IMG/VR virus record: IMGVR_UViG_3300035698_003990
Coordinates: 1 to 27,280 of that record
DNA from: a virus
Direction: 5' to 3' (one strand)
Length of the DNA: 27,280 nt
Position 1 is the stretch's first letter, and each line of letters begins with the position of its first letter. Of the stretch, positions 16,492 to 27,280 are shown piece by piece. The translations under genes were made by a program, and so were the position numbers. A model generated the notes under the pieces. The model did not search any database and was not told where the DNA came from. It was given only the letters and a program-made list of their open reading frames with translations.

Positions 16492-16524
16492 AATGTCTGT
16501 GGTTATTGATAAAAATCTCTAGGA

Positions 16525-16557: not shown

Positions 16558-17544
16558 TTAAGCAGGTGTGACAGCGATACCAACCTTGGAGGTTGTCATA
16601 TCACCCATACCAACTACTTGAACTTGATCAGTAACAGTCGCACAGAAATTTGTGCAATTACAAGCCGGTGAAACGAATAATAGATTTCCGTCTACCAAAC
16701 CTGTGACTGATTCAACTGCATCTGTTAGTGCAATTCCACCCGATCCCGCACATATAGCGGCATTGAAAATCGGATTGATGAAAGTTTGAGTAAACTTACA
16801 ATCACCAGCCGCATTGATTTTAATGAAGTTCGCATTGGCTTCACTTGAATTGATACTCCAAAGACAATCTTTGAATACACAAGACTTCATTTCTTGACCA
16901 GTAGTGACCTCATCAATAAGCATAACAGCTCTATCACCAGAAGTAACAAGCGTGTCATTTCCAAAGGTACATTCCTTGAATGTACCGGAATCTTCACCCA
17001 TAACTGCTTCATGTGCAGTAGTGCCACCTAGATTATCCGCAACACCAAACACAAAAGAACAGTTCTCATACATATTTCCTTCACCACCAAATTGGAATAC
17101 TGTCAAGGCTGTGGCCTCAGCAGATCCTTGGATGAATTTAATATTTCTGAAAGAGTTTCTTGTTCCTGTGTTCTTGATCACATAAGCTCCAGCCGTTCCA
17201 GTAGCGGTTTGTAGCTTTGTTCCTTGCTGTAAATAACGACCACCACCATCCAAGCCCTCAACATGAATCCGGCTCTTTGTCCAAGCAATAGAAACTACTG
17301 TGTGAGTGTTCTGAGCTGACATTAGGATAATGTCGTTTCGATTTGTCACACACGCTTCATACGCTTCATTTAATGTAGTAAATACATTCTCTGAACCAAA
17401 TCTTTGGAAGATTTTATTGTAGTCTGTGTCTGAATCTTCCAAGACCAAGAACACCTCACCGCCAGTAAGGAGATTGGCCCGAATAGTATCATCATGCACC
17501 CCAAGGCGCACTAGATCAGCTATTGTTTCTTGAAAATTACCCAT
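16558..17544 (-). CDS. parallel beta-helix virion protein
   Basis: A 328-aa protein. After a 100-residue helical N-terminus the sequence has repeated short turns of the kind FRNIKFIQG, YENCSFVFG, FKECTFGND and MKSCVFKDCLW (about 140-225), with Asn/Cys ladder positions. This is characteristic of right-handed parallel beta-helices such as pectate lyases and phage spikes. The Cys-rich C-terminal stretch (SPACNCTNFCATV, about 298-310) is odd for a cytoplasmic virion protein and might bind metal. It follows the small capsid genes, with AACC 9 nt before the ATG. It could be a capsid decoration or a tailspike. Confidence 0.6.
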   Translation of the reverse strand: MGNFQETIADLVRLGVHDDTIRANLLTGGEVFLVLEDSDTDYNKIFQRFGSENVFTTLNEAYEACVTNRNDIILMSAQNTHTVVSIAWTKSRIHVEGLDGGGRYLQQGTKLQTATGTAGAYVIKNTGTRNSFRNIKFIQGSAEATALTVFQFGGEGNMYENCSFVFGVADNLGGTTAHEAVMGEDSGTFKECTFGNDTLVTSGDRAVMLIDEVTTGQEMKSCVFKDCLWSINSSEANANFIKINAAGDCKFTQTFINPIFNAAICAGSGGIALTDAVESVTGLVDGNLLFVSPACNCTNFCATVTDQVQVVGMGDMTTSKVGIAVTPA

Positions 17545-20680: not shown

Positions 20681-21112
20681 TTAGTAAATAGCTTTGCCGT
20701 TGAAATGGTCAATCTCGTGCTGGAATATGCAAGCAACTAGACCAGTTAGTCGCTCCTTTACCTGTTTTCCATCAAGCCCGGTGTATTCAATATCAAGAGT
20801 TTCATACCTTTTCACCTTCTTTTCTGGCCTATATGGGAAAGATAAACACCCCTCATAGTGGGTAAAGTCACTCTCCTCTGATCCATGCACTATCTTTGGG
20901 TTGATTATTACTAGGCCGTTTTTCATCACAAAGAACCTCAAAGGGTCTGTATGATCCACTTGGCAATGCGCCAAAGCGTAGCCTCCGAACTTGTAATTAC
21001 CAATAGCATCCCCGCATATACGCACCATCTCTAGCACAATCGGTATAATCTTCTTAATCTTCTTAACTTCTTGCGACTGCTTCTTACATTGTCCTGCTAG
21101 AATTTTCATCAT
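20681..21112 (-). CDS. def: peptide deformylase
   Basis: A 143-aa metalloenzyme that removes the formyl group from nascent proteins. Motif 1 is degenerate (GYALAHCQV, Gln51 kept). Motif 2 is EGCLS at 87-91 with the metal ligand Cys89. Motif 3 is HEIDH at 132-136 with both His ligands and the catalytic Glu133. All essential residues are therefore present. It starts at ATG 21112, sharing a base with the portal TAA (TAATG). The second ATG at 21109 has AACC 8 nt upstream and may be the true start. Phage deformylases are known from cyanophages and metagenomic phages, usually outside structural operons. It probably keeps pace with heavy late translation. Confidence 0.88.
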   Translation of the reverse strand: MMKILAGQCKKQSQEVKKIKKIIPIVLEMVRICGDAIGNYKFGGYALAHCQVDHTDPLRFFVMKNGLVIINPKIVHGSEESDFTHYEGCLSFPYRPEKKVKRYETLDIEYTGLDGKQVKERLTGLVACIFQHEIDHFNGKAIY

Positions 21113-26326: not shown

Positions 26327-26744
26327 CTTTAAGTTTATCTATATTGCGCTGAATATACCACACAGCCTTTTCCAGATCCTCAATAGGCTTGCCTTTATGC
26401 TCATGCCTCCACAAATACTTCATAGCATTGCCGACAAGGAATCCAAACTCCTCTACAATCTCGATACTTTCAACCCCGCTAGGATGCTTGCCGTAATGGT
26501 CCGGATGATTAACAGGATCACCAATTTCATCATCCTTAATAAGTTTCATTTGACTATCAAAAATAGTAAAACTCCAAGTAAAAGCAGTAGCAACACAAGA
26601 ATAATGCCCCGATTCTTGGGACACATCACGATTTCTTCTGAATATCAAATCCCCAAAACCTATACATTCTGGACACCACCCCTCAACATCACGAAAACCC
26701 AATTCCGGCGTCCTAGTTCTGATTTTGTAAAGTTTTTCCTCCAT
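26316..26744 (-). CDS. DUF3310 protein (T7 gp1.7-like)
   Basis: A 142-aa protein. The C-terminal 70 residues carry the DUF3310 signature: NHPDHYGKHPSGVESIEI, then FLVGNAMKYLWRHEHKGKP and LEKAVWYIQRNID. The related T7 gp1.7 is a nucleotide kinase. The N-terminal half is an extra domain with a Cys pair (WCPECIG, about 23-29) that may bind zinc. It is the first gene behind the late leader, with AACC 9 nt before the ATG. Confidence 0.8.
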   Translation of the reverse strand: MEEKLYKIRTRTPELGFRDVEGWCPECIGFGDLIFRRNRDVSQESGHYSCVATAFTWSFTIFDSQMKLIKDDEIGDPVNHPDHYGKHPSGVESIEIVEEFGFLVGNAMKYLWRHEHKGKPIEDLEKAVWYIQRNIDKLKDEN

Positions 26745-26799: not shown

Positions 26800-26857
26800 T
26801 TAATAAATAAAAGATGGCGGCCCATGTTCAGTGAGTACCGCCATCTGATGAACATGG
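26800..26857 (-). promoter_or_regulatory. late-operon leader: terminator/antiterminator-like switch
   Basis: Minus-strand order is B' CCATGTTCA (26857-26849), A' AGATGGCGG (26846-26838), B TGAACATGG (26830-26822), A CCGCCATCT (26820-26812), then TTTATTTATT. A'/A pair perfectly (9 bp) as a GC-rich terminator with a U-tract. B'/B pair perfectly (9 bp) and would block it. The loops are only 1-7 nt, too short for both stems at once. This is the geometry of an attenuator placed between a promoter at 26899-26926 and the first late gene. Confidence 0.65.
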
Positions 26858-26898
26858 ATTACTACTCAACAACTTAAAGTTCAAGTAACAACGCTTCG

Positions 26899-26926
26899 AG
26901 TTTATCACATCCCCGGAACTAATCAA
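26899..26926 (-). promoter_or_regulatory. minus-strand late promoter
   Basis: On the minus strand TTGATT (26921-26926) and TAAACT (26899-26904) are 16 bp apart, with a TG dinucleotide one base before the -10 (extended -10). The predicted RNA starts near 26892 and gives a leader of about 150 nt before the ATG at 26744, which includes the switch at 26800-26857. Two 20-bp repeats lie just upstream. Confidence 0.5.
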
Positions 26927-26942
26927 GCCCAAATTTCTTTTA

Positions 26943-26981
26943 GGATAATTCCGGGACTTTCGGGATAATTTCGAGACTTTT
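26943..26981 (+). repeat. two tandem 20-bp repeats, likely operator sites
   Basis: GGATAATTCCGGGACTTTC (26943-26961) is repeated as GGATAATTTCGAGACTTTT (26963-26981), 16 of 19 positions identical with a 20-bp period, about two helical turns. A shorter inverted version (CCCCGGAACT, 26911-26920) lies in the late promoter spacer. The block sits directly upstream of the late -35 and between two divergent promoters, so it is a natural place for a phage regulator. Confidence 0.55.
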
Positions 26982-27207: not shown

Positions 27208-27280
27208 ATGAACAACACAAAAACAGCACAGGAAAAAAAGACCTATTATCAAGTCGAGGCGACAGAGTCGGGAGATGTAA
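27208..27280 (+). CDS. 5' end of an early gene (partial)
   Basis: ATG at 27208 begins 24 visible codons (MNNTKTAQEKKTYYQ onward) and runs off the window. AACC ends 9 nt before the ATG, the same signal and distance as in many late genes, and a good promoter lies just upstream. The visible part is polar and shows no domain. As the first plus-strand gene after the control region it could be a regulator or early protein. Confidence 0.6.
   Translation, partial: MNNTKTAQEKKTYYQVEATESGDV

Follow-up and report, generated by a model that had tools for sequence, protein, structure and literature searches.

Terminator-type riboswitches and the attenuators that sense tRNA or protein, e.g., SAM-I, T-box, and pyr, use mutually exclusive antiterminator and terminator structures. 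In phages, the HK022 put RNA and lambda Q modify RNA polymerase, which then passes downstream terminators, and in well-studied phages the timing of late genes is set mostly by sigma factors, activators, or antitermination proteins. The putative element considered here resembles the first group in being a leader that precedes an operon and contains an exclusive antiterminator and terminator, and differs from it in having no Rfam match and no known ligand site, in the topological nature of the exclusion, and in preceding phage late genes rather than metabolic genes. Like put and Q, it would control a terminator in phage transcription, but here the terminator arm itself belongs to the switching structure. 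A phage-borne structured regulatory RNA in a host with a streamlined genome has also been described in methylophage Melnitz and some pelagiphages, which carry a glutamine riboswitch next to ssrA; that RNA, however, is a known host-type aptamer and not a late-operon leader (PMC9004378). Rfam scans of the leaders analyzed in this work, both in the phage under study and in its relatives, revealed no known riboswitch.

The window, i.e., the whole analyzed stretch of DNA, is a single virus record of 27,280 bases with nearly all genes on the minus strand. The minus-strand genes encode a DUF3310 protein, a VRR-NUC protein, the terminase, an SU10-like portal, a peptide deformylase, and the capsid protein, and the gene for the DUF3310-domain protein (26744–26316) is the first late gene. 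This context is phage structural and not metabolic, which bears on any riboswitch reading. The peptide deformylase gene (20681–21112, minus strand, PF01327) is situated within the late block between the portal and the capsid genes, while in several relatives a distant homologue is placed upstream of terS instead. On the plus strand, a gene at 1543–1821 encodes a KhpA/KhpB-type KH RNA-binding protein (Pfam PF13083, E = 4.4e-12), possibly an RNA-binding regulator; this unusual phage cargo is convergent with a gene encoding 1654 amino acids.

Four 9-nt arms are found upstream of the first late gene on the minus strand: A' (CCATGTTCA, 26857–26849), B' (AGATGGCGG, 26846–26838), A (TGAACATGG, 26830–26822), and B (CCGCCATCT, 26820–26812). 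A' and A form an antiterminator-like stem, and B' and B a terminator-like stem directly followed by the U-tract TTTATTTATTA (26811–26801), the predicted termination region. Both the sequence and a repeat search of the window confirmed the two perfect interleaved pairs of the original prediction: each pair is 100% complementary, the pairs have no base in common, and the linkers between successive arms are 2, 7, and 1 nt. The predicted arm order, B'-A'-B-A, is that of the plus strand; in the transcript the order is A'-B'-A-B. In 1500 dinucleotide shuffles of 27 kb, two perfect interleaved stems, each of 9 bp or more and both confined to 70 nt, appeared at a mean of 0.0033 per shuffle, and no shuffle had them together with a U-tract. 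Approximately 0.64 Mb of other phage DNA contained one such interleaved locus, inside a tandem repeat. The 5' part of the leader (26892–26858) may form a weak hairpin upstream of the arms. A candidate leader peptide (ATG at 26855, 32 codons) was rejected, as it has no clear ribosome-binding site and its length is ordinary.

The arms are preceded by a putative late promoter, TTGATT-16-TAAACT (26926–26899, minus strand), identified by its match to the consensus, with a predicted start site near 26892. The extended −10 element that had been predicted is present (TGn), but the promoter as a whole, with 8 of 12 consensus matches in addition, is only weak to fair, and a standard sigma-70 scan did not list it. 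The B'B hairpin follows this promoter at a distance of about 80 nt and precedes the first late gene by 68 nt; it is situated within a divergent gap of about 460 bp that separates this gene (start at 26744) from a short plus-strand open frame (ATG near 27208) running off the contig at the right end. Two tandem imperfect 20-bp repeats, possible binding sites of a late regulator, are localized directly upstream of the promoter (26937–26976). The same gap contains a 25-bp motif, GCTTAAATCGCCTTATATGGCCTCG (27014–26990, minus strand), and similar motifs with 3 and 8 differences are found just upstream of terS in two related phages (L113:1815–1839 and L097:2994–3018, respectively); the shared motif is either a late-region signal or a chance similarity.

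A scan of both strands places the B'B hairpin (−16.6 kcal/mol) in the top three of the window's distinct U-tailed hairpins. The first rank belongs to a hairpin at 16514, and B'B is tied with a hairpin at the end of the operon (133); the three share the late (minus) strand, the other two being localized in gaps between or after genes. The hairpin at 16514 (−23.4 kcal/mol), the strongest terminator-like structure of the window, is located within the late block, between the genes at 17544–16558 and 16491–15913; the late genes may be split between two or more transcription units. The B'B loop of 17 nt is long for a terminator, which is why a standard terminator scan missed it, and the U-tract is interrupted by an A. 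Taken as a whole, the 149-nt leader has a folding stability that does not exceed that of its shuffles (z = 0.14).

Folding of the minus-strand leader, the check suggested with the original prediction, gave A'A and then B'B in successive transcript lengths. In equilibrium folds of the growing transcript, A'A reached 0.91–0.92 with the 3' end at 26822–26816, and B'B reached 0.88–0.99 from 26813 to beyond the U-tract; thus, A'A is predicted to form before B'B. The predicted energies are −10.7 kcal/mol for A'A and −17.2 kcal/mol for B'B, the latter being more stable by 5–6.5 kcal/mol, and the predicted barrier of the direct path from A'A to B'B is about 15 kcal/mol.

A possible mechanism is as follows. 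RNA polymerase would start near 26892 on the minus strand, and the nascent RNA would first fold into A'A, holding B' in its loop; after the emergence of B, the B'B terminator with its U-tract would form only in the absence or after the displacement of A'A. The exclusion would result from topology and not from a common strand, since the linkers of 2, 7, and 1 nt are too short to span two complete 9-bp helices of a pseudoknot; from helix geometry and linker lengths alone, we infer that an H-type pseudoknot retaining both full helices is excluded. Polymerase covers about 14 nt of RNA. The lead of A'A over B'B would be about 10 nt and A'A would be deeply trapped, which makes read-through the likely default, and a factor blocking or melting A'A would bring about termination. 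Termination itself and the direction of control in the window leader are what we infer from these folding models. Taken together, sequence and prediction yield the anatomy of a functional attenuator, i.e., exclusive helices, a U-tailed terminator, and placement between a promoter and the gene.

Related phages were gathered by searches with terL and the capsid protein and grouped by terL, portal, and capsid protein. One relative, L113, resides in a Candidatus Parcubacteria metagenome-assembled genome, and a relative of the capsid protein was found in 3 of 380 sampled genomes of the same phylum, including that of L113 itself. This suggests that the hosts are Patescibacteria, and the window phage is probably a phage of Parcubacteria. 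In L097, L086, and L113, a promoter-like sequence is followed by a strong terminator and then by the late genes, and the leaders of L097 and L086, when folded, yield a closed structure of several hairpins in competition with the terminator. The alignment of these two leaders, with one 3-nt gap placed by hand, already contained nine double changes; it served to construct a model (R1), with which further members were found on the coding strand of the relatives. The resulting class comprises nine distinct contigs (L077, L081, L086, L089, L094, L097, L107, L109, and L149), where it is localized 584–1853 nt upstream of terL on the coding strand.

The class is a four-hairpin RNA with conserved loops and a conserved junction. 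Hairpins P1, P2, and P4 are included in the model, whereas P3 was read by eye (GAA..UUC, GAG..CUC, AGAU..AUCU, with UCGUA in most loops). In the nine-member alignment, 93% of cells pair and two-sided changes occur in 19 of 21 pairs; the cells with such changes number 67, compared to 19.7 in shuffles (0/500 reach the observed value), although the alignment was fitted to the structure, which favors covariation counts. The pairing signal collapses in slid-alignment controls. An independent test is provided by the members outside the R1 training set, which score 25.7–44.7 bits with this model (E from 0.0011 to 2.5e-9). A model rebuilt from the clean set of nine contigs (R3) gives 61–78 bits, a partly circular result, as the members built the model; it has no match at E up to 10 in the rest of the 846 kb scanned, and its background in 514 kb of other phages peaks at 12.4 bits. 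Another model (R2) was not used, as it contained two doubtful matches from cellular genomes.

Eight of the nine members have a sigma-70-like promoter (9.5–11 of 12) located 3–24 nt before the RNA, scores of 10 or more being observed at 1.3% of random places; the promoter of L107 is weaker. The U-tailed terminator hairpins of these leaders have −24 to −39 kcal/mol, and the 3' strands of P1 and P4 constitute the 5' arm of the terminator, pairing with its 3' arm. Among the P1/P4 3'-strand cells, 108 of 125 also find a partner in the terminator, and 103 are paired in both states. Pairing with P1/P4 and with the terminator arm is largely retained though most positions vary between phages, a three-strand covariation. 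Judging by the sequences, the leaders of the relatives look like antiterminator/terminator attenuators.

The relatives' leaders have no match in Rfam, and we found no description or published name of this RNA in the open-licence literature, so that the class is apparently undescribed. Searches of about 380 genomes from the phylum and about as many from the taxonomic class yielded no convincing cellular member: the match in L185 falls inside an adenylosuccinate synthetase-like gene, that in L186 is in a repeat within a tsaD-like gene, and the remaining matches to cellular genomes are weak. Where the contig of a relative extends at least 2 kb upstream of terL, the late-leader RNA class is missing in about half of the cases, and six of the phages without it (L073, L075, L078, L088, L096, and L098) showed no U-tailed hairpin below −14 kcal/mol in this region. 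In L113, the tenth relative, a terminator of −28 kcal/mol is located 1053 nt upstream of terL, and an alternative hairpin involves its 5' arm. Together with the nine members, L113 brings the relatives that have a strong U-tailed hairpin and an alternative fold there to 10 of the 19 with this much upstream sequence. In two relatives (L097:2680–2812 and L113:1304–1434), the late-leader terminator is closely followed by a second RNA of about 110–130 nt (GGATTCCCCCTRTAACAGGTCGAG...), conserved and apparently structured; it has four pairs changed on both sides and no Rfam match at the gathering threshold.

By sequence, the window leader is not a member of this class: with R3 and no filters it scores at best 5.2 bits, compared to 61–78 for the members, and the core is absent. 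A proposed homology based on the common element TCCAT-N8-GATG was rejected, as neither R1 nor R3 supports it. At the same time, the setting is that of the class, namely, a fair promoter and a U-tailed hairpin (−16.6 kcal/mol) located 1569 nt upstream of terL. Both have the same leader position before the packaging genes and a fold alternative to a U-tailed terminator; in the class, however, a strand is shared with the terminator, whereas in the window the exclusion would be achieved by interleaving without a shared strand. The best reading is that the window switch is an orphan late-operon attenuator, either convergent and independent or highly diverged. Late-transcription attenuation looks like a habit of the group, as at least nine relatives hold covarying leaders at this place, and the window element, having the same anatomy in the same place, is read as a version of this common regulatory habit.

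An alternative explanation is that the promoter and the terminator yield a stand-alone phage small RNA of about 85 nt, with the interleaved pairs serving its fold or target pairing and the late genes using another promoter. The spacing between the promoter and the terminator suits such an RNA, and a second weak promoter-like site, TTGAAA-17-AAAAAT (26774–26746), is present between the terminator and the gene. That site, however, is at chance level (3 found in the scan, 3.3 expected), and the alternative folds of the relatives consume the terminator arm, which would be needless for a plain small RNA. We consider this explanation unlikely.

Searches for homologues of the window leader bear on another possibility, namely, that B'B serves as a plain or leaky terminator and A'A arose by coincidence and has no function. 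As in the original prediction, which recognized no known class, the window has no match at the gathering threshold among 4227 Rfam models; the best scores, for SAM-III (17.3 of 45 bits) and the shuA thermoregulator (21 of 58 bits), are far below gathering and were treated as chance. Blastn of the leader against phage records, the fetched relatives, and Patescibacteria genomes gave short, scattered, chance-level matches and no convincing homologue. Of the exact and gapped arm patterns searched in viral contigs, only the terminator pattern matched, in three contigs with no sign of relation to the window phage, and a search with relaxed stem length found no interleaved stems at the leader position of the relatives. 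The coincidence would agree with there being no homologue with a compensatory change, with the ordinary folding energy of the whole leader, and with the site having been picked from an entire window; it is nevertheless improbable, given that the chance expectation for interleaved 9 + 9 bp stems is 0.003 per window and that no shuffle combined them with a U-tract. Still less probable is that the arms act as DNA, i.e., as overlapping inverted repeats bound by a late regulator, terminase (cos), or a replication initiator in a divergent control region, for although the gap is divergent, the tandem 20-bp repeats adjoin, and roughly one helical turn separates the half-sites A'-B' and A-B, no arm copies were seen elsewhere in the window, and the strand-specific U-tract right after B and the rank of B'B suit an RNA function.

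We therefore favor, with a probability of roughly 60%, the reading that the leader of the late operon (packaging and virion genes) contains a transcription attenuator. The attenuator originally proposed is supported by its anatomy, the predicted folding order, and the covarying leaders of the relatives, and weakened by window arms without homologues and by the lack of an R3 match; the conserved attenuator-like RNAs at the late-leader position of the relatives raise the hypothesis above the support from the window's own sequence. More tentatively, and at somewhat less than even odds, phages of Parcubacteria and related Patescibacteria may gate the late operon by cis-acting RNA attenuators, the four-hairpin class sensing a phage or host factor and the window phage having substituted an independent interleaved switch for the same job.

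If this is true, the late promoter and the packaging genes in a group of uncultured phages would be separated by a strong terminator with an alternative RNA fold, which would point to late switching sensed by RNA in hosts whose genomes are very small. In the relatives, the class, with its model, loops, and three-strand covariation, is defined well enough for synthesis and testing, and the identity of the sensed factor would reveal the signal by which these phages commit to virion production.
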